Below the pieces are notes generated by a model that did no database searches, was not told the DNA's origin, and worked only from the letters and a program-made list of their open reading frames with translations. A DNA stretch of 10,739 nucleotides from Sediminibacterium sp. (GTDB lineage Bacteria; Bacteroidota; Bacteroidia; Chitinophagales; Chitinophagaceae): the NCBI GenBank assembly GCA_028288645.1, contig JAQBNJ010000205.1, positions 1 to 10,739 on the forward strand, read 5' to 3'. Each line of letters opens with the position of its first letter. Position 1 is the first letter of the stretch. Made by a program: the position numbers and the translations under genes. Below are positions 1-10,739 of the stretch, in pieces.

Positions 1-1
1 C

Positions 2-370
2 GGCCTGATACCCGCCTATATTAAAACAGCTTATAAGAAAGAGCCTGTTTTTGGTAACAGCAAAGTGGTCTTTACGATCGGCGCCAATACATTTAAAGAG
101 AAGCTGGGTACCGATTTTGTGCAGAAAGCGATCATTAACGCCAATATCAAAGAAAAAGACCTGGAAGCTTTCAAAGAAGGCAATAATACAGCCATGTTCA
201 GGGGCGGGGCGAGCTTCGCGGATGCCATCACTTTTGGTGCTGACACGATAGAGAAAAAACTGGTTGACGAATTCGCTAAAGTAAAGGGAAAAAAAGTAGT
301 TCCATTTAAAGGATGGGATTCTGATTTAACAGAGTATTTAGAATTGTACAACGACCTTGCGGGCAAGTAA
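2..370 (+). CDS. Glycogen/starch synthase-like GT5 protein, C-terminal part (5' truncated by window edge)
   Basis: The frame is open from the first bases of the window and ends at TAA 368-370, so only the last 122 residues are visible. The start lies outside; the internal GTG at 65 is a Val codon, not a start. The visible part begins GLIPAYIKTAYKKEPVFGNS and continues with KVVFTIG, FADAITFGAD and a Lys-rich end. This matches my memory of the short (about 270-residue) Bacteroidota proteins annotated as glycogen/starch synthase (GT5 catalytic domain only), which would use a nucleotide-sugar donor for alpha-glucan synthesis in the cytoplasm. The characteristic N-terminal donor-binding region is not in the window, so activity cannot be judged. 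The DUF4270 gene follows after only 10 bp, a pairing I recall from other Bacteroidota genomes and one that supports the call. Co-transcription with it is likely. Confidence 0.72.
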   Translation, partial: GLIPAYIKTAYKKEPVFGNSKVVFTIGANTFKEKLGTDFVQKAIINANIKEKDLEAFKEGNNTAMFRGGASFADAITFGADTIEKKLVDEFAKVKGKKVVPFKGWDSDLTEYLELYNDLAGK

Positions 371-380
371 TTACTAACTC

Positions 381-1859
381 ATGCATTCATTTTTTACGCT
401 GCGTAGAATATTTATTTCGGGTATTGTTTTGATCGCTTTTTCTTCGGGCTGTACGCGTATCAGTTCTACCGATATAGGGGCAGGTTTAATTCCCCCGATA
501 GATGGTGTGATCACCAAAGACACATTACTGGATGTAATTACCGATTCATTTGATGATCTTGATTCTGCCAGGCTGTACTCGGCAGATAATCACCTGGTAG
601 GTGCGATAACCAACGATCCTTTATTCGGCACCACAACCGCTTCCATGTTTTTTGAGATGAAGCCGCCAACGTTCCCTTATTATATTCCAGGTAATAAAGA
701 CAGCCTGGTGGTTGATTCTGCCGTGCTGATACTTAGCTACAGGGGTGTGTATGGCGATTCAACCAAGCCGCTTACCCTTCGTCTTTTCGAGATCAATGGA
801 AATACCCTGCTTGACCCTGCTATTAGTTATCCGGTGAACTACCCAAGCCCTATTTCAACCGGGTTCGCGTTGGCTCCGCCGGTAACGCTTGATATCCGCC
901 GTTTAACAGATTCAGTTAATAACCGCTACGAGAATTCAAACAACCAGATCCGTATCCGACTCAATTCTGCGCAGGCATTCCGTTTTCTGAAAAGTTATGA
1001 TTCATTGGGTGCGTACAAGTCAGACTCGATGTTCAGAACAAATTTTGCGGGTTTTGCTTTGCAGGCTGATGCTTCTGGCGGTGCAAATGCGCTTTTAAAA
1101 GTTAACCTGCTTGATACCAATTCGAAGTTCGCTTTGTATTATAGTTCCAGTTCAACGGGCGCAACTGTCAGGGATACCTCGGTTGCCTATTTCAATTTTA
1201 TTGGCGGAACAGATGGACACCTGAATAGGGTCACCAGGAATAAAGCAGGAAGTGAGGCTGCCACACATTTTACTACCACTTCAAAACCTGATTCACTCGT
1301 ATATGTTCAAACCTCACCAGGATCTTATGTAAGGGTACGCATACCGGGTTTACAGGGATTATCGAACCGCATCATACACAGGGCAGAGCTGATAGCAGAG
1401 CAGGTGCCGGATGATGCACACCCCCTTGTTGAACCCTTTATGCTTCCGCCCCGGTATTTATTACTGAGCCGTTATGATTCAGTTCTAAAGGTGAAGAAAA
1501 ATATTCCGAACGATTATACGATCAGTTCCGACGGAAGCCCGAATATTTCCACCTTTGGCGGTTACCTCAGTTCAAAAGCCATCAATGGCTATGATAAAGT
1601 AGCTTCTTATACATTTGATCTCAGCCGCTATGTGCAGGGCATTGTTACCAGGAAAGACACTTCGTTCACTTTGCGTTTGAGTGCACCTGCCCAGGATTCA
1701 TTGCATTATACACCTCCTTACCCGGGAAACACAAGCTCACAGATGTACTATCTCACGCCAACTGTCGGAAACGATGTCGGAGATGGCAGGGTAAGATTGG
1801 GCGGAGGCACCCATTCCCGTTTCAGAATGCGTTTGAGGGTTATTTTCTCACGTATCTGA
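381..1859 (+). CDS. DUF4270 family lipoprotein
   Basis: The product has 492 residues. It starts with a charged segment, a hydrophobic stretch (about residues 11-20) and a lipobox-like FSSGC with Cys24, which indicates export and lipidation at an envelope membrane. Just after the Cys comes a DIGAGLIPP segment (31-39), which resembles the DIGxxLIP element near the N-terminus of DUF4270 proteins; the length is also usual for that family. The rest looks like a beta-rich extracytoplasmic domain with many Asp, Ser, Thr and aromatic residues, and it ends in an Arg-rich strand. The molecular function of DUF4270 is not known. The ATG at 381 puts the signal peptide right at the N-terminus, and the gene lies 10 bp after the GT5 gene, so the two probably share a transcript. 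The family call rests on motif memory, not a profile search. Confidence 0.8.
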   Translation: MHSFFTLRRIFISGIVLIAFSSGCTRISSTDIGAGLIPPIDGVITKDTLLDVITDSFDDLDSARLYSADNHLVGAITNDPLFGTTTASMFFEMKPPTFPYYIPGNKDSLVVDSAVLILSYRGVYGDSTKPLTLRLFEINGNTLLDPAISYPVNYPSPISTGFALAPPVTLDIRRLTDSVNNRYENSNNQIRIRLNSAQAFRFLKSYDSLGAYKSDSMFRTNFAGFALQADASGGANALLKVNLLDTNSKFALYYSSSSTGATVRDTSVAYFNFIGGTDGHLNRVTRNKAGSEAATHFTTTSKPDSLVYVQTSPGSYVRVRIPGLQGLSNRIIHRAELIAEQVPDDAHPLVEPFMLPPRYLLLSRYDSVLKVKKNIPNDYTISSDGSPNISTFGGYLSSKAINGYDKVASYTFDLSRYVQGIVTRKDTSFTLRLSAPAQDSLHYTPPYPGNTSSQMYYLTPTVGNDVGDGRVRLGGGTHSRFRMRLRVIFSRI

Positions 1860-1866
1860 TAACTGG

Positions 1867-1897
1867 TTCTGTTGTATTGTTCGTTAGTATATATTTG
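1867..1897 (+). promoter_or_regulatory. Probable metK promoter (Bacteroidota -33/-7 type)
   Basis: TATATTTG at 1890-1897 fits the Bacteroidota primary-sigma -7 consensus TAnnTTTG exactly. The -33 region is weak: TTC at 1867-1869 lies 20 bp upstream where TTG is expected, while a true TTG at 1872-1874 is too close (15 bp). Transcription would start a few bases after 1897, giving a leader of roughly 15-20 nt before the metK ATG at 1920. The whole gap between genes is only 60 bp, which leaves no room for a SAM riboswitch. Confidence 0.6.
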
Positions 1898-1919
1898 CAC
1901 CCATTAAAACCAAAATAAT

Positions 1920-3173
1920 ATGCCTTATTTGTTTACTTCTGAAAGTGTATCTGAAGGACATCCGGATAAAGTAGCCGACCAGATATCCGATGCGCTTATT
2001 GACAATTTTCTAGCATTTGATGCACAATCAAAAGTGGCTTGTGAAACATTGGTAACCACAGGGCAGGTTGTACTGGCCGGTGAAGTGAAATCAAAAGCAT
2101 ATCTCGATGTTCAGGAAATTGCACGTGGTGTGATCCGTAAGATCGGGTATACTAAGAGTGAGTACATGTTTGAAGCAAACAGTTGCGGAATATTTTCAGC
2201 TATTCATGAACAATCTGCAGATATCAACCAGGGTGTTGATAAAAAGAAGAAAGAAGAGCAGGGTGCAGGCGACCAGGGTATGATGTTTGGTTATGCTACC
2301 AACGAAACAGATGATTATATGCCATTGGCACTTGACCTGGCGCATAAGATCCTGATTGAGCTGGCCGCTTTGAGAAGAGAGAACAAACAGATCAAATACC
2401 TGCGTCCTGATGCCAAAAGCCAGGTAACGCTTGAGTATGATGATAATAACAAACCGGTTCGTATAGATGCGATCGTGGTTTCAACACAGCATGATGATTT
2501 TGATTCGGAAGCCAAGATGTTGGCTAAGATCAAAGAAGATATTATCAACATCCTGATCCCGCGTGTTAAATCAAAATATAAAAAATACGGCAAACTGTTC
2601 AATGATAAGATCAAGTATCATATCAACCCAACAGGTAAATTCGTGATCGGTGGCCCGCATGGTGATACCGGTTTAACAGGGCGTAAGATCATTGTAGATA
2701 CCTATGGTGGTAAAGGCGCACATGGTGGTGGTGCGTTTAGCGGAAAAGATCCAAGCAAGGTTGACCGTTCTGCAGCGTACGCAACACGCCATATTGCAAA
2801 GAACCTGGTAGCAGCGGGTATTGCGGATGAAGTATTGGTACAGGTTTCCTATGCGATCGGGGTGGCACAACCAACCTCCATCAATGTAAATACCTATGGC
2901 ACAGCTAAGGTTGACCTGACTGATGGCCAGATCGGCAAAATGATAGAAGGTATTTTTGACCTTCGTCCTTACTTTATCGAGCAGCGTTTGAAATTACGTA
3001 CACCCATTTACAGTGAAACAGCTGCTTACGGACACATGGGCCGTAAGAATGAAGTGGTAACTAAACAATTCACTTCACCGGATGGTAAGGTTAAGAATGT
3101 AAAAGTAGAACTGTTTACCTGGGAAAAACTTGACTATGTTACCAAAGTGAAAAAAGCTTTTGGTGTTAAATAG
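1920..3173 (+). CDS. metK: S-adenosylmethionine synthetase (methionine adenosyltransferase)
   Basis: MetK makes S-adenosylmethionine from methionine and ATP in the cytoplasm, releasing phosphate and pyrophosphate; the enzyme is normally a homotetramer. The 417-residue product carries the family signatures: [13 protein letters not shown] at 5-17 with catalytic His14, the [12 protein letters not shown] hexapeptide region at 115-126, the [13 protein letters not shown] segment at 234-246 followed by GDTGLTGRK, and the P-loop-like GGGAFSGKD at 269-277. Length is slightly above the usual 380-400 residues; a Lys/Glu-rich stretch at 108-113 just before the hexapeptide and a Lys-rich segment at 217-232 are the visible local features. 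The start is preceded by A-rich sequence and a good -7 box. The stop is TAG at 3171-3173, followed by a strong terminator, so this is a clear single-gene transcription unit. It also shows that TAG is a genuine stop in this genome. Confidence 0.98.
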
Positions 3174-3191
3174 GTTATTAAGAAAATAATC

Positions 3192-3222
3192 AAAACCTCT
3201 GCTCAGTTGGCAGAGGTTTTTT
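3192..3222 (+). terminator. Rho-independent terminator of metK
   Basis: Arm 3192-3202 (AAAACCTCTGC) and arm 3210-3220 (GCAGAGGTTTT) pair perfectly over 11 bp around a 7-nt loop (3203-3209), and a T-rich run follows (3217-3222, then TTTT again at 3225-3228). It lies 19 bp after the metK stop. The A-run on the 5' side would also make it usable in reverse, but no gene converges here. Confidence 0.93.
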
Positions 3223-3226
3223 AATT

Positions 3227-3296
3227 TTAGGTATTGGGCATTAGGTGTTAGGCATTAGCTCCTGGCCGTTGCTAAAAGCTAATGGCTAATACCTAA
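3227..3296. repeat. Imperfect inverted repeat built from TTAGG/GCATTAG words
   Basis: Arm 3227-3252 matches the reverse complement of arm 3271-3296 at 21 of 26 positions by hand count, with an 18-base spacer. Inside the left arm and spacer GGCATTAG occurs twice (3237-3244 and 3251-3258), so the element is made of short related words (TTAGG, GCATTAG, and CTAAT on the other arm). It fills most of the gap between the metK terminator and the next gene. This composition resembles low-complexity intergenic repeats of Bacteroidota genomes, a REP-like or noncoding hairpin element. There is no sign of a transposase or of coding capacity. Confidence 0.65.
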
Positions 3297-3318
3297 TAGC
3301 TTCTTCTCAAACCAGCGT

Positions 3319-3813
3319 ATGAAAAAAAATATCTCTCTTGCTGCTTTTCTCACAGTAGTAATGATCATTGTGCTGCGTTGGCAGGGCAATAGCCTTGTGA
3401 ATACTACCAGTCCGGGGGGTATCGTGAATCTTGAATTTGCCTATACGCCGCAAAGGTTACTGGAATTGCTTTCCCATTGGGATATCACCGCTGTGAAGAC
3501 AAATATCTGGCTCGATTTTCTTTTTATCATCTCGTATACGCTCTTTCTATCTGTTGCAGCAGAACTTTGCTCCGAAAGATGGCCGGAAAACAGTGTGCCA
3601 CGCCAGGCAGGATTGTTCTTTGCAAAAATGGCCTACCTGGCAGGTATTTTTGATATTGCTGAGAACCTGTTGATGATGCAAAGCATCGAAGGAAACTATA
3701 CGATCACATTGCTTCAATTTACTTTTTACTTTGCGGCGATCAAATTTGTATTGGCAGGGATCATTGTTATTTACCTGCTTGCCTCTTTGCCTTTTATCAT
3801 TCGAAAAAAATAA
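3319..3813 (+). CDS. Four-helix integral membrane protein of unknown function
   Basis: The product has 164 residues and I do not recognise the family. Hydrophobic segments lie at about 4-19, 63-84, 97-118 and 134-158, so four membrane helices are likely. The loop between helices 1 and 2 (about 20-62) contains a polar segment with FAYTPQRLLELL. Helix 2 carries Asp66 in NIWLDFLFIISYT, and helix 3 contains FDIAENLLMM at 111-120, whose acidic residues inside or at the edge of the membrane could matter for function. The protein ends in the basic IIRKK, consistent with a cytoplasmic C-terminus. The Nudix gene begins 7 bp after the stop, so the two are almost certainly co-transcribed. No promoter of the TAnnTTTG kind is visible upstream; the region holds the inverted repeat. 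Confidence 0.75.
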   Translation: MKKNISLAAFLTVVMIIVLRWQGNSLVNTTSPGGIVNLEFAYTPQRLLELLSHWDITAVKTNIWLDFLFIISYTLFLSVAAELCSERWPENSVPRQAGLFFAKMAYLAGIFDIAENLLMMQSIEGNYTITLLQFTFYFAAIKFVLAGIIVIYLLASLPFIIRKK

Positions 3814-4386: not shown

Positions 4387-5133
4387 ATGCCTGTTAAACA
4401 AAGTTCACTTATTATCGGCCGGCAACCATTGGTTGAGGCCCTGCAGTCCGGAAAAGCCATCGATAAGATATTGCTTCAGAAGAATGCGGTTGGAGACGTG
4501 ATCAACACGATCCGCCAGTTGGCGAGAGAACACAATGTTCCCATACAGGTTGTGCCCATCGAAAAATTAAATGGGTTAACAAAAGCCAACCACCAGGGGC
4601 TGATCGCATTCGCAGCAAGGGTTCAATACATGGATCTTCAGCAGGTGATCGATCATGTGGTTTCTAACGGTGAACTTCCTTTGTTCTTAATGCTGGATGG
4701 CGTAACCGATGTTCGCAACATCGGAGCAATTGCAAGAAGCGCGGTTTGTTGTGGCGCGCAGGCCATCATCATACCCGATAAAGGTGTGGGTGCTTTGAAT
4801 GAAGAAGCGATGAAAAGCAGCGCCGGTGCATTGGAGCAGATACATATCTGCCGTGTAAACAGTTTATTAAAAGCTGTCGATACTTTACACTTGAATGGCA
4901 TCAAAGTTTTTACAAGTGAAATGCGTGCGGAGCAAAATGTATTTGAACTTCCTTTCACCGACCCCTGTTGTATTATTATGGGTGATGAAGGAAAAGGCGT
5001 ACAACCCTATCTCGCAAAAGCCGCGGATCATTTCTTTAAGATACCGATGGCTGCGGCATTTGATTCATTCAATGTATCTGTGGCAACAGGTATCATTCTA
5101 TACGAAGCAATGAAACATAGGATGGGAAAGTAA
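4387..5133 (+). CDS. rlmB: 23S rRNA (guanosine-2'-O)-methyltransferase, TrmH/SpoU family
   Basis: The 248-residue product has the two-part layout of RlmB. An N-terminal substrate-binding domain opens with LIIGRQPLVEAL (8-19) and contains NHQGLIAFAA (68-77). A SPOUT (knotted) catalytic domain follows with motif 1 DVRNIGAIARSA (108-119; N111 and R117), motif 2 IIMGDEGKGV (196-205; E201) and motif 3 SFNVSVATGIILYEA (227-241; N229). The enzyme would transfer a methyl group from S-adenosylmethionine to the ribose of a guanosine in 23S rRNA; a tRNA 2'-O-methyltransferase of the same family is the main alternative. I take ATG 4387 as start; an in-frame TTG at 4381 would add only two residues and lies inside the -7-like box. 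The gene follows the Nudix gene by 11 bp and ends 20 bp before the convergent kelch gene. Confidence 0.92.
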   Translation: MPVKQSSLIIGRQPLVEALQSGKAIDKILLQKNAVGDVINTIRQLAREHNVPIQVVPIEKLNGLTKANHQGLIAFAARVQYMDLQQVIDHVVSNGELPLFLMLDGVTDVRNIGAIARSAVCCGAQAIIIPDKGVGALNEEAMKSSAGALEQIHICRVNSLLKAVDTLHLNGIKVFTSEMRAEQNVFELPFTDPCCIIMGDEGKGVQPYLAKAADHFFKIPMAAAFDSFNVSVATGIILYEAMKHRMGK

Positions 5134-5153
5134 CTGCCAGTATGTATAGCGCT

Positions 5154-6860
5154 TTATAGTTTGATCCATTTTTTTGTTTGCAATACTTTATCCTCTCCCA
5201 TTAATTTGATAAAATAAGTGCCGGCGGGAAGGTTATTAATTTGCATGCTGGCCATTGAGCCTTTCGATACTCCTTTGAACACACCTTCCTTCAATAACCT
5301 GCTATTAATATCCAACACCTGCCAGTTGAGTTTTTGGTAAAATTTGTTACTGAGTATACTGAACTGGTTTATTGCCGATGGATTGTTCAATAAAATAATT
5401 GATGATGGATCTGCGGTTATGCCTGGCGGCTTAACTGCTGTTACAACACCACTGCCGGTTCCATAATTGAATTTCCAAAGTTCAGAATAGCCATTATATG
5501 CTGAATTAGGAACTACGGGCACCGAAAAAGGAATATCATTTTCGCCGCCGTATAAACAAAAGTTACCGCTGATATCTCTCCATCTGAAACTGTTTGCCCT
5601 GGCGCCGGGTGTATTGGCGGCAGCATTAATACCCAAAGTGCCATAAGTACCCCGGTCCTTTATATCGTTACTGCCACTTATCCAGGCCCAGGCAGTTCCA
5701 TCCCATTTCCACAGATCATTTAAATAACCCATAGTACCGGTACCGTATCCTTCTCCTCCAAACAGCCAGAAATGACCGCTGTTATCGGCCCAGCCAACGC
5801 CATGCTTTCTGGCGCCAGGTGTATTGGAAGCGGCTGCAATACCTTTTACACCATAACTGGCTTTCGCATCATGGGTACTACTGCCATTTACCCATGTCCA
5901 GTTACTGCCATCCCATTTCCATAGATCATTGAGGAAGTTGCCGATGGCTGGAGAAGATATAAGTGCGGCCGAGGTTTGACCGGTCCCACCGAATAACCAT
6001 AGATTATCTTTATCATCTACCCATGAAACACTTCCATATCTTGGTTCGGGTATATTGGCAGCAGCGGGAATACCTTTTGTTCCATAGTTTCCTGCAACAT
6101 AATTATACTCGCCACTCACCCATGTCCAGTTAGTGCCGTCCCATTTCCAGAGATCATTTGAGTAGGTGATATAACCTCGGTAGTAATAATCAATTCCCCC
6201 AAACACCCATACAATGCCTTTGCTGTCGACCCATGTTACACTATTCTGTTTGCCGGGTGGCAAATTTGCCGGATCAGTAACACCTTTTGTTCCGTAGTGA
6301 TAGTTGATGGTTGGGGGAACAGTAACCAATGAGCCAGTATTCTCACCACCATTGATCCAAGTCCAGTTGATACCATCCCATTTCCAGAGATCATTGAACC
6401 AGGAATTATATCCATCAGATCCGCCGAATAACCACAGGTTACCTTTATTGTCTGTCCAGCCCACACTACCGGTTCTTGCACCGGGCCGGTTAGCCGGATC
6501 AGCAACCCCTTTGGTACCATAAATGGTTCTCTCATTAAAAACATTGCTTCCGCTGATCCATGTCCAGTTGGTACCATCCCATTTCCAAAGATCATTCAGG
6601 TTATTGCTTGAATTCGGCGGGGTTTTTACCTTACCTCCAAACAACCATAGGTTTCCGGTGATGTCCGTCCAGCTAACCCCATCAGACCTTACCCCAGGAG
6701 AATTGGTTGCAGCAGCAACTCCTTTCACGCCATAATTAGCTAATTGGTTATGTGCAGTGTCCCCATTTATCCAGGTCCACTGATTGGTTTGCGCTTTTAA
6801 TAAATGCAATGAAATGATACAGAGAACAAGTGTAAGAAGAAGCCTGTTGATTTTTTTCAT
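5154..6860 (-). CDS. Secreted kelch-type beta-propeller protein with T9SS sorting domain
   Basis: The product has 568 residues. Residues 1-24 are a signal peptide (MKK start, hydrophobic core, LKAQ end). Six repeats of about 70-77 residues start at Tyr43, Tyr114, Tyr189, Tyr259, Tyr336 and Tyr406. Each unit reads roughly YGTKGVxxxxNxPGxR, then SVxWxDxxGNLWLFGG, then NDLWKWDGTNWTWxxG. The last ends ELWKF without the WTW strand, while an extra QWTWING (27-33) precedes the first, so the N-terminal strand probably closes a six-bladed propeller. Residues about 494-568 form a T9SS type A sorting domain with INNLPAGTYFIKL (541-553) and a final KKWIKL, so the mature protein should cross the outer membrane and be released or anchored at the surface. 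Ligand or activity is unknown; no catalytic residues can be assigned. It is the last gene of the minus-strand run, 33 bp after the radical SAM gene. Confidence 0.87.
   Translation of the reverse strand: MKKINRLLLTLVLCIISLHLLKAQTNQWTWINGDTAHNQLANYGVKGVAAATNSPGVRSDGVSWTDITGNLWLFGGKVKTPPNSSNNLNDLWKWDGTNWTWISGSNVFNERTIYGTKGVADPANRPGARTGSVGWTDNKGNLWLFGGSDGYNSWFNDLWKWDGINWTWINGGENTGSLVTVPPTINYHYGTKGVTDPANLPPGKQNSVTWVDSKGIVWVFGGIDYYYRGYITYSNDLWKWDGTNWTWVSGEYNYVAGNYGTKGIPAAANIPEPRYGSVSWVDDKDNLWLFGGTGQTSAALISSPAIGNFLNDLWKWDGSNWTWVNGSSTHDAKASYGVKGIAAASNTPGARKHGVGWADNSGHFWLFGGEGYGTGTMGYLNDLWKWDGTAWAWISGSNDIKDRGTYGTLGINAAANTPGARANSFRWRDISGNFCLYGGENDIPFSVPVVPNSAYNGYSELWKFNYGTGSGVVTAVKPPGITADPSSIILLNNPSAINQFSILSNKFYQKLNWQVLDINSRLLKEGVFKGVSKGSMASMQINNLPAGTYFIKLMGEDKVLQTKKWIKL
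5454..6734 (-). repeat. Six tandem in-frame repeats encoding the propeller blades
   Basis: Repeat starts fall at 6734, 6521, 6296, 6086, 5855 and 5645 on the minus strand, so units are about 210-231 bp. The DNA stays recognisably similar in the block coding NDLWKWDG, seen on the plus strand as variants of CCATCCCATTTCC followed by AGATCATT. Unit length differs mainly through loops after the FGG motif, as expected for divergence of old duplications rather than recent expansion. Confidence 0.85.
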
Positions 6861-6893
6861 AACATGATATTTACTTTCAGGATCACATTTTTG

Positions 6894-8117
6894 TCAGGCA
6901 ATTTTTTCATACCTGGGGCATGCATTTTCTTTCAACGGAAGCGTCGCATGTTCGCCCCTGATTATGTCCAGGATATTGTAGGCGCTGGTATGACAAAACG
7001 GGCAGGCATGCACATCGCCAACAGAATCCACATATACGCTGCGGCTCCCCGAAAAACAACCCACGCGTCTTTGATGATAGCCATGATACATAAGTGTTGG
7101 ATAATCTTTATAAACAGGTGAATGATTTACGTTGGTAAAAATCTTTTCAAGTTGAACAATATGTTGTTCTTCCAGTAAAACATCTTTCCCGCTGTAATTT
7201 CCAACATTTTTTGGTTCAAGAACCTGTACAAAATTAACACCCAGTGTTTTTGCAAATTCTATATACGGCATTGTATGACCGCTGCTGATAAAATGTTTGG
7301 TAGCACATACACTCACTGCTGTTACCAGTCCTGCGTTTCGGGCAGCTTTTACGCCTTCAACCGCTTTATTGAAAGAATCAGGGTGATTGCGGAACAGGTT
7401 ATGCAATTCAGGGATGTAATGATCGATACTTACCACAACGCCTTTACAGCCGGCTTTTTTCAGGAGGCCCGCGTTTTCTTTTGTTAAATTAAATCCAGAG
7501 GTAACTACCCAGCATTCACTTTTATTACTCGCCAGTTTTATTACTTCCAGTAAATCTTTTATCCGTACCATGGGTTCACCTCCGCTGAAATGGATCTGTA
7601 ACACGCCTTCTTTTTGAAACAGCTCTACCGTTTTTAATAATTCTTCTTTTGTAAAAGATTCTTTTTGATTGAGGTTATCCCATTCAAAGCAGTGTTCGCA
7701 GCGGAGCGGGCACTTTCTTGTAACAGCGAAAAAAATAAAGGAAAGTTTTTCACTTATTGTAAGGGGCGATGCATGCCTGCGTAGTTCGCTTTTAATAAGG
7801 TCGTCATATGCTTTTGAGGGCCATCCCGGTGTATAAATATTATAGTAGTACCTGTTGCCGATCCTGTGTATCTTTTCCAGGTCGCCACCCCAGATATTTT
7901 TTCTCAGTTTTAGCATCACGGCAAATAATTTCATAATTCTTTTTGGATGTTTTATCGTAATACAGGTAAGATAAAATAATCGCAGTTTAATGGCCCACCA
8001 AACGATTTTCTTTTCCGCATTGGAGAGGTTACCCGAAGATTGTTTTTTGGATGGGTTGCTTATATAAACCTGCATAAGACTTTTGCCCGGAACTGCTATG
8101 GTTGAAATGGAGCGCAT
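6894..8117 (-). CDS. Radical SAM protein with C-terminal auxiliary-cluster (SPASM/twitch-like) cysteines
   Basis: The product has 407 residues. The radical SAM core is shown by the CPLRCEHC motif (C136, C140, C143), which would bind the [4Fe-4S] cluster that cleaves S-adenosylmethionine, and by FSGGEP at 178-182. The C-terminal part has C354, the C372-x2-C375 pair in YVDSVGDVHACPFC, and C400 in ENACPRY, enough for one auxiliary cluster but fewer than a full SPASM set. About 130 residues precede the core, including RYYYNIYTPGWPSKAYDDLI (89-108) and a basic, partly hydrophobic segment (37-72). The substrate is unknown; relatives modify peptides or proteins or act in cofactor synthesis. No small precursor-peptide gene is visible beside it. 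ATG 8117 is the first start; Met15 and Met62 are alternatives. It lies 63 bp after the split lipoprotein gene and 33 bp before the kelch gene. Confidence 0.85.
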   Translation of the reverse strand: MRSISTIAVPGKSLMQVYISNPSKKQSSGNLSNAEKKIVWWAIKLRLFYLTCITIKHPKRIMKLFAVMLKLRKNIWGGDLEKIHRIGNRYYYNIYTPGWPSKAYDDLIKSELRRHASPLTISEKLSFIFFAVTRKCPLRCEHCFEWDNLNQKESFTKEELLKTVELFQKEGVLQIHFSGGEPMVRIKDLLEVIKLASNKSECWVVTSGFNLTKENAGLLKKAGCKGVVVSIDHYIPELHNLFRNHPDSFNKAVEGVKAARNAGLVTAVSVCATKHFISSGHTMPYIEFAKTLGVNFVQVLEPKNVGNYSGKDVLLEEQHIVQLEKIFTNVNHSPVYKDYPTLMYHGYHQRRVGCFSGSRSVYVDSVGDVHACPFCHTSAYNILDIIRGEHATLPLKENACPRYEKIA

Positions 8118-8180
8118 AAATTAATTTTTTAGAAATTGACTGAATAAGATTCTTCCTATTATTCTTTGAGAAACACCTGG

Positions 8181-8819
8181 TTATTTCACTGCCAATGTTT
8201 CAAGATTTGTACTTCGCACTTTTTTATACATTTCAATGCTGAACTTTGGAAAACCACCCGGTTTTTTAAATTGCTCAAGAAAAGCAAGTTTAGGGCCGCC
8301 TTCAAAATTTCTAACATGCTCGTAATAACCCCTGGTATGCAGAATGTATGTCTGCATTTTTCCGTCAGGCGCGGGCTTATAATGGTAGCTGATCGTGGTC
8401 ACCGTGCCGGGTAGGGGCTGTTCAAGATAATTTTCATCAGCCGATACTAATTTATCCAGAACATTCTTGCCGGTTTCGTCAACAGCCGCAACCGGCGATA
8501 GTTGTTGAACGGTAAAGGATCTATTATCACTATAATCTATCGCCGCATAGTCAATTTCCCAAAACATAAAACCACTGGTTAATTTTATTTCTGTGAACGG
8601 CTGGAGAACGGTTTCCATAGCGAGCGGTACAACAATTTCCCTGGTAGTAAGCGGGCCAATGGTTGTTAGTCCGGTTATTTTTTGCCAGCCTGCTGTAGTT
8701 TTTACAGAAATTTCCAATGGCAGCTGTTGCTCACGTGTCCATTTCTCCAACTCTGTTACAGGCTTACCATGTTGCTGTTTAATGAAACTATTGTAATAGC
8801 TGCCAAAGCCTTCGGCCAT
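8181..8819 (-). CDS. C-terminal part of the TAG-interrupted protein (possible reinitiation product)
   Basis: The 212-residue open frame runs from the first ATG after the TAG (25 bases on) to TAA. It has no signal peptide and would be cytoplasmic if made alone, which makes little sense for a domain whose N-terminal half is exported. Visible segments are PLEISVKTTAGWQKI, IGPLTTREIVVPLAMET, FMFWEIDYAAIDYSDN, a VAAVDETGKNV region, and a GYYEHVR segment near the C-terminus. These look like a beta-sandwich-rich continuation of the SCPF-type protein. The Met at the start is more likely an internal residue of the original protein (KMAEGFG). No function is known. The radical SAM gene starts 63 bp downstream. 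Confidence 0.65.
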   Translation of the reverse strand: MAEGFGSYYNSFIKQQHGKPVTELEKWTREQQLPLEISVKTTAGWQKITGLTTIGPLTTREIVVPLAMETVLQPFTEIKLTSGFMFWEIDYAAIDYSDNRSFTVQQLSPVAAVDETGKNVLDKLVSADENYLEQPLPGTVTTISYHYKPAPDGKMQTYILHTRGYYEHVRNFEGGPKLAFLEQFKKPGGFPKFSIEMYKKVRSTNLETLAVK

Positions 8820-8843
8820 TTTCCCAGACAGATAATCTAACCA

Positions 8844-9842
8844 CTAAGAATTTTTCAGCGCAAGAACGAGTTTTGCTTTTTTTGTATTTGTGGGGTTGTT
8901 GAATTTTAATACAAGCTCGTTAGTTGCTGCGGCCGCCAACGTATCATCAAAATGCAGTAATTGATTGTCCCCGGCATATAGTAAGGGTGCAAGAACATCT
9001 TTATGATTGCTGAGGGTTGCAGCAACGGGCGGTTCCGGTTTTTCGATGCTGTATAAATTACCCTGTTCGTCTGAAAGAATTTTGGAATTTTTGTCATGGG
9101 TAACCACCATCAATTCGGCAAGGTCAGTGTATTGACGTTCTTTTAATTCATTGCTGATTTTTAATTGTAAACCACCGTTTGCATCTGGCGCCATTTTTAA
9201 TTTGATATAGTCATTGCGGCAGAGTTGCGGGTAAATGGCACCGCCATAAATTTCACCCTGGAGTGAAAAATCATTTCCATCGTAAGCGCTTACAAACGGG
9301 CAGGAACTCTTTGTAGCGGCAATAATAATGCCTGCTACCATAAAGGCCCCGATAGTATAACCAATCGCTCCTATCACATAGCTTCCTGTGGTACGTCCTT
9401 TGTCTTTTTCCAGTACTTCTATCTTTTGTACTTTATCAAGCGCTAATGTGTATACAGCGCCTGGCTTGGCGGCTTCATCCGCCGGAGAATAAAAATGCAC
9501 TTCATTTAAAACATTGGTTTCCGGCGAATTCGTTTTGTACCTGAGTTTACCACGACGGCCTTTTGAAAGGTGCAGTTTATGTTGGGGGGGCAAACTGTCT
9601 AATGTGCATTGTAAAGTTTTCTGATCAGCACTTAGCGTAACTTCTTTCATATACCAGGCGGTGGTTCCGCTTCGCAGAATGAAGTCGCGGTTTTGCAATT
9701 TTAATTGTTCAATATCGTTGGTTGCAACGGTTACCGGGGTTTTGCTTATCATATAAAAATTATGACAGGCCGTTTGCATAATAAAAAGAGATAAAACGGT
9801 TAAGCCAAAAACAATCCGGTGCAGCGTAATTTTGTAATGCAT
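8844..9842 (-). CDS. Probable lipoprotein, N-terminal part of the TAG-interrupted gene
   Basis: From ATG 9842 the product has 332 residues. It opens with a signal peptide and a lipobox-like MQTAC (Cys26), so an envelope location is likely. An earlier in-frame ATG at 9908 would add 22 residues before the signal, making it the less likely start. Residues about 30-150 are polar with beta character; a Gly-rich hydrophobic stretch follows (about 153-177) and looks membrane-embedded. Next come SSCPFVSAYDGNDFSLQGE (179-197) and YGGAIYPQLCRNDYIKLK (199-216). This SCPFVxxxDG...GE...GGA...RxDY pattern belongs to a family I have seen in Bacteroidota and related envelope proteins but cannot name. The chain stops at TAG in what looks like mid-domain (KLVLALKNS). 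The barrel gene ends 90 bp upstream of this start. Confidence 0.7.
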   Translation of the reverse strand: MHYKITLHRIVFGLTVLSLFIMQTACHNFYMISKTPVTVATNDIEQLKLQNRDFILRSGTTAWYMKEVTLSADQKTLQCTLDSLPPQHKLHLSKGRRGKLRYKTNSPETNVLNEVHFYSPADEAAKPGAVYTLALDKVQKIEVLEKDKGRTTGSYVIGAIGYTIGAFMVAGIIIAATKSSCPFVSAYDGNDFSLQGEIYGGAIYPQLCRNDYIKLKMAPDANGGLQLKISNELKERQYTDLAELMVVTHDKNSKILSDEQGNLYSIEKPEPPVAATLSNHKDVLAPLLYAGDNQLLHFDDTLAAAATNELVLKFNNPTNTKKAKLVLALKNS

Positions 9843-9932
9843 AAAAATTGATTTTTTGAGATTTAAAAATTCAAATGAGAGTGATGAGATAAAATGAGAT
9901 TTAGTCATGATAAAAAACTGGAAATCATTTTT

Positions 9933-10451
9933 TTAAAATTTGTAACCAAATCCAATACCGGCCCAGAACAGATAGCCACCATCTTTTTCCAGGCCGACCA
10001 ACGGAGAAACAACAATCCTTCCAAAGAAGCCGCTGATTTCGGGCTGGTATCGATAACCGATGCTGGGCACTAACACGCTGCCCGATACATTCCCTATAAA
10101 GTCAGTATTGCTTGCATAGTTTGCATAGGTAAAACCGATACCCGATTCAAAATAATTCGGTGCCTTTCCGGCAAGATGATTGATGCTGACAGGGATACTG
10201 AATATTCCACCGCTAAAAACCCTGAAATATCCAAGACCTAACCGCATACCAAGCCCCTTTTGACTCCTGGTAAACCTGAAATCGTAGTTAACAGAACAAA
10301 AGGGGCCATTCCCACCCAGTTCCATATAAATAGCCTGGGCGCGTGAATTGTTATTTGTCGTTTCTACGGCACCGGGTGTAACATTTTGTGAAAAGATGTT
10401 AACGGCTGGCACTAGTAATACCAGTAAAAGCAGTTTTAGTTTTGGTTGCAT
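9933..10451 (-). CDS. Small outer-membrane beta-barrel protein
   Basis: The product has 172 residues. A signal peptide covers about residues 1-21 (basic start, LLLLVLLVP core, cleavage after IFSQ). The mature part alternates Gly and aromatic residues in strands such as YMELGGNGPF, GLGMRLGLGYF and YFESGIGFTYANY, and ends in WAGIGFGYKF with a terminal Phe, the usual recognition feature for outer-membrane barrel insertion. The size suits a barrel of about eight strands. No specific function can be read; such proteins in Bacteroidota are mostly uncharacterised. It is the first gene of the minus-strand run, so its upstream region should contain the promoter for the run, though no exact TAnnTTTG box is visible there. 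Confidence 0.82.
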   Translation of the reverse strand: MQPKLKLLLLVLLVPAVNIFSQNVTPGAVETTNNNSRAQAIYMELGGNGPFCSVNYDFRFTRSQKGLGMRLGLGYFRVFSGGIFSIPVSINHLAGKAPNYFESGIGFTYANYASNTDFIGNVSGSVLVPSIGYRYQPEISGFFGRIVVSPLVGLEKDGGYLFWAGIGFGYKF

Positions 10452-10739
10452 AACTTGATTTTGTATGAGATGATTTTATAGTTCTTAACAGGGCCTGGTT
10501 CTGTTATTGATAGCGCTAATCTATTGTGCGATGAAGTACTTTCATAATTGGTTCCTGCGCCAGCTTTTTTATAAAAAGTAATTTTTATTGATCCTTTAAT
10601 AAATTGTTTTCGGTATACTGATATTTTGCGTTTTGGGGCACCCAGACAATCTTATTTTGGCAGATTTCACTAAAAGATTACCGGCTGTTTTTAATTTTTA
10701 CCAAAACTTAAGTGGGGATTCAAAATGGGAACGGGCTGC
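10452..10739. other. A/T-rich region upstream of the barrel gene, no confident gene
   Basis: These 288 bases to the window edge probably hold the control region of the minus-strand run. I see two small palindromes: TAACAG 10486-10491 with CTGTTA 10501-10506, and ATAAAAA 10571-10577 with TTTTTAT 10582-10588. The closest minus-strand -7 match is one base off (plus-strand CAAAACTT, 10702-10709), without a well-spaced -33 element. No tRNA or clear coding sequence is visible. Confidence 0.4.

Follow-up and report, generated by a model that had tools for sequence, protein, structure and literature searches.

The in-frame TAG codon that interrupts an envelope-protein gene in the window (the whole stretch of DNA analysed here, 10,739 nucleotides from a draft genome of Sediminibacterium sp., called G000 below) is probably an erroneous base, or one taken from a minority strain, in a low-quality draft consensus; most or all of the population would then carry an unbroken gene. 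We observed the stop itself, a conserved tyrosine at its position, purifying selection on both halves of the gene, and further genes of this draft that also contain a lone stop. The TAG would be a consensus error or a minority-strain base and would not be present in the living cells, and the intact gene would make a full-length envelope protein of 553 residues, paired with a radical SAM protein. The features concerned are the following.

8181..9842, minus strand: interrupted envelope-protein gene of a Bacteroidota family, 553 codons if the stop is read across
8844..8846, minus strand: in-frame TAG, codon 333 of 553; tyrosine in 120 of the 120 other aligned rows
8826..8828, minus strand: second unusual codon, serine at column 339; tyrosine in 120 of the 120 other rows
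8181..8819, minus strand: C-terminal half as a separate ORF of 212 amino acids with its ATG at 8819; start not conserved
6894..8117, minus strand: radical SAM gene directly 3' of the envelope gene; in 25 of 27 loci the family has a homologue of it as neighbour

The earlier note placed the TAG (8846-8844) in frame between the minus-strand ORFs 9908-8844 and 8819-8181, and this was borne out; past the TAG the frame stays open as far as a TAA at 8181 on the minus strand. Its proposal that a single gene reads across the stop agrees with the homologues. A search that scored 7,997 candidates sharing most words returned 973 homologues at E ≤0.001, the closest four of which (among the best 120 listed) are 553-577 amino acids long, at 78-82% identity. 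The stop-column alignment has 121 rows, namely the window, its nearest DNA relative L008 and 119 of the 973 database homologues, these being the best 120 listed minus P0012, which is the window's own N-terminal half. In this alignment, of the kind the note had proposed, tyrosine stands at the TAG in all 120 other rows (the 119 database proteins and L008). The 27 related loci, which include L008 and many distant relatives, are all without a stop at this column: 17 have Tyr there, 8 Leu, one Phe and one Met. The start that had been given at 9908 was corrected to 9842, as three of the four closest relatives (553 amino acids) start at the corresponding methionine, which makes the stop codon 333 of 553; the predicted protein of the fourth, P0004, is 24 residues longer.

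Comparison of coding sequences indicates that both halves of the gene are under equally strong purifying selection. Against L008, dN/dS is 0.071 before the stop and 0.078 after it (computed over the diverged part, with dS ~0.8), and with such similar ratios on both sides, the lesion should be either not real or very recent. Among 154 conserved columns the window deviates at 4, a number that lies within the family range of 0 to 10 and places it 102nd of 121 rows in rising order; an old pseudogene, or general decay of the gene, was rejected on these counts and on the dN/dS ratios. The earlier statement that neither side shows other damage needs a small correction at codon 339 (8828-8826), a serine where all 120 other rows have tyrosine. 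Among 66 columns invariant in all other rows the window departs from two, codons 333 (the stop) and 339, both of them tyrosine elsewhere and the second sitting six codons past the TAG. The chance of two random invariant columns falling this close is ~0.05 (a post hoc figure), and deviations at two or more columns that are invariant in the rest also occur in 3 of the 120 other rows.

The window is contig 517 of G000, an assembly of 2.8 Mb in 571 contigs with an estimated completeness of 56.6%, and from this fragmentation and completeness G000 is presumably a metagenome bin. We surveyed 120 of the 571 contigs (594,068 bases) for lone in-frame stops, as distinct from frameshifts, taking pairs of adjacent ORFs (≥60 codons each) that share a frame, have one stop between them and are not shadowed by a longer frame. 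Dropping the pairs overlapped by a longer frame reduced 162 to 25 and 81 to 19 in G000, and 339 to 20 in the one-contig congener G010, so that 44 pairs of G000 passed the filter. Eight of these 44, picked by eye as suspicious, were scanned with Pfam, and in five of the eight one Pfam domain spans the stop (three TAA and two TAG):

L079: aldehyde dehydrogenase, TAA inside a single Pfam domain
L080: dihydrolipoyl dehydrogenase, TAA inside a single Pfam domain
L180: S9 peptidase, TAA inside a single Pfam domain
L180: GH95, TAG inside a single Pfam domain
L196: UPF0029, TAG inside a single Pfam domain

The two lone stops of L180 fall in neighbouring genes. The pairs of L168 and L174 have no Pfam domain spanning the stop; the pair of L156, also among the eight scanned, has TAG as its lone stop. 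The dihydrolipoyl dehydrogenase of G000 passes the NCBIfam equivalog cut-off, carries no stop in any of the 16 same-genus genomes, out of 18 searched, that gave a match, and has no second copy in G000 detectable at E up to 1e-50. The aldehyde dehydrogenase is likewise free of stops in all six same-genus genomes with a match, again with 18 searched. In the control, 400 kb of G010, a domain spans the stop in none of the 20 filtered pairs, at a Pfam threshold of 1e-5 versus 1e-3 for the pairs of G000. A split of 5 to 0 would be expected ~8% of the time at equal per-base rates, by simple arithmetic, and with one control genome and 8 of 44 versus 20 of 20 pairs scanned the contrast between G000 and G010 is suggestive and is not a measured rate. 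A first tblastn comparison against the ORFs of G010 aligned 6,618 codons with 7 stops and was not used; six of these stops are antisense to the window's metK and TrmH and the seventh is in L083.

Lone stops, both TAA and TAG, therefore seem to be a property of the G000 draft. Metagenome-assembled genomes carry single-base consensus errors and strain mixing, and the pattern seen here resembles these: genes that are otherwise intact and under selection are interrupted by single in-frame stops, in an assembly both fragmentary and incomplete. It differs from such errors in that we infer both the artefact in G000 and the status of G000 as a metagenome bin. Two further observations favour a consensus error, namely the changed invariant tyrosine six codons past the TAG and the pair of stops that a tight cluster of differences brings into L008, another draft contig described below.

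Less probable, though still to be taken seriously, is that a nonsense mutation arose recently in the sampled strain; the protein would then be cut after 332 residues and its C-terminal 220 lost. Such a true mutation would give the same sequence as a consensus error, and the lone stops of G000 could themselves be real pseudogenes of the strain. As in a recent nonsense pseudogene, the window gene has one stop and both of its halves are conserved, and dN/dS ratios of 0.071 and 0.078 allow for a very recent event. The gene is also accessory in the genus: among 147 genomes only G000 has a strong match, the 146 others yielding two weak ones, and loss of the gene may therefore be tolerated. The change of a second invariant residue nearby points in the same direction, as do the private amino-acid changes, judged only where P0001-P0004 agree. 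Before the stop (residues 119-332) there are 5 of these in the window versus 6 in L008, and after it 6 (the stop counted) versus 3, an excess that could hint at relaxed selection, the numbers being small and too few to show it. Unlike the case of a recent nonsense pseudogene, however, at least five other genes of G000 are hit too, and a common technical cause explains this more simply. Dihydrolipoyl dehydrogenase, intact in all 16 same-genus genomes with a match, is among the genes hit. Because the same draft has at least five other lone intragenic stops, we place an erroneous or minority-strain base ahead of a nonsense mutation. If the mutation were true, the truncated protein would probably be non-functional, and polarity may lower translation of the downstream radical SAM gene. 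The earlier note listed four readings and chose none; nonsense mutation and base error are the two that these results favour, readthrough and reinitiation faring poorly.

Programmed or suppressed amber readthrough, which would yield a short and a long envelope protein, is very improbable. It would account for purifying selection on both halves and for a frame continuous across the TAG, and the window gene resembles known amber suppression and readthrough genes in that its frame stays open past the stop. It differs from them in that the stop is not common to the relatives examined (none of the 120 other rows or of the 27 loci has one at this column) and in that the lone stops of G000, three of them TAA, are not specific to TAG, so that the two-form surface protein envisaged earlier is unsupported. 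The search for an amber-suppressor tRNA that had been suggested found 11 tRNAs in G000, none with a CTA anticodon, which is weak evidence in a bin 57% complete, where many tRNAs must be absent, and a further difference from amber suppression genes. The gene metK does end in TAG, as the earlier note had it, followed by a hairpin and a T run that look terminator-like by eye; this ending also argues against readthrough and, together with the two kinds of lone stop, led us to reject a global reassignment of TAG. In the predicted structure of the intact relative P0003 a strand ends just before the stop column and a helix starts there, within a stretch whose mean pLDDT is 88; this placement may speak against readthrough as well. 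We give scarcely any credence to the variant in which the stop is real and is read through at some rate, truncated and full-length forms of the envelope protein, the partner of the radical SAM protein, coexisting in the lineage. Recoding is without support in these data, and an in-frame stop in one draft is weak evidence for it until the lone-stop rate of the assembly has been checked.

Reinitiation at the ATG at 8819, giving two separately made halves that work together, is just as hard to credit. The ATG does lie in frame 25 bases past the TAG, as had been described, but inspection by eye of the 30 bases preceding it shows no obvious ribosome-binding site, bearing in mind that such sites are often weak in Bacteroidota. 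Its methionine is moreover an ordinary family residue, the column being Met in 41 of the 121 rows and Leu in 74. A search with the C-terminal half found 49 proteins, and the starts of these C-terminal-only homologues are spread from ~193 to 426 of the full-length protein, with 3 of 49 at Met 342, the window's own among the three. Many are encoded on contigs ~1 kb long, which is what fragments at contig ends would look like. A naturally split family, which the earlier note had raised as a counter-indication to its reading, was rejected, given that uninterrupted relatives exist and that the starts of the C-terminal-only pieces are scattered.

The nearest DNA relative, L008, is a contig of a Chitinophagaceae draft that is near-identical to the window from 10611 to ~9500. 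Its positions 1-3640 show near-identity over ~1.1 kb and then ~86% identity, the latter by arithmetic. Within the near-identical stretch, four differences in 39 bases give L008 two stops in the frame of ORF 9908-8844, one of which falls at codon 3 when the gene is read as 553 codons. The genome bin of L008 has another copy of the locus, 64-67% identical, and L008 looks like a mosaic or misbinned contig.

As for the window itself, its metK shares 93-95% identity with those of the four congeners that score best and the order DUF4270-metK-NUDIX-TrmH is syntenic in G010, with synteny seen up to TrmH. On account of this identity and synteny the left half of the window belongs to the genus, and misbinning of that half was rejected. 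To the right, from 5154 to 10739, the window has kelch, radical SAM and envelope genes and a gene for a 172-amino-acid protein, none of which was found in the 40 kb of G010 around metK. The boundary at which synteny with G010 stops lies at 5133-5154 of the window. The right half is either a species-specific island or a chimeric join, between which the data do not discriminate.

The uncharacterised envelope family and its pairing with a radical SAM protein merit study more than the stop does. The closest relatives of the envelope protein are from Chitinophagaceae. Neither half has a Pfam match above cut-off, the joined protein matches no NCBIfam family at E ≤0.01, and a search by sequence for a solved relative gave none that convinces, with one chance-level match at E 0.63. 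The N-terminus is hydrophobic and the cysteine C26 is invariant in 70 of 70 rows of alignment A1 (70 of 71 selected proteins, P0036 being left out), a combination that we take to be a putative lipoprotein signal (lipobox). Assignment of a function from the fold was abandoned, the matches to the P0003 model (mean pLDDT 86) being weak, with whole-model TM-scores ≤0.2 among the matches listed; judged by their titles, many of these weak matches are beta-sandwich proteins. Of the 80 NCBIfam families that the radical SAM protein matches, 25 are listed, and its score reaches the cut-off of none of these 25. In 25 of 27 loci a homologue of it follows the family member downstream, at a distance within ~1.3 kb (L023 showed none, and L034 stops where the match does), and the envelope protein and the radical SAM protein are a conserved pair in several groups of Bacteroidota.
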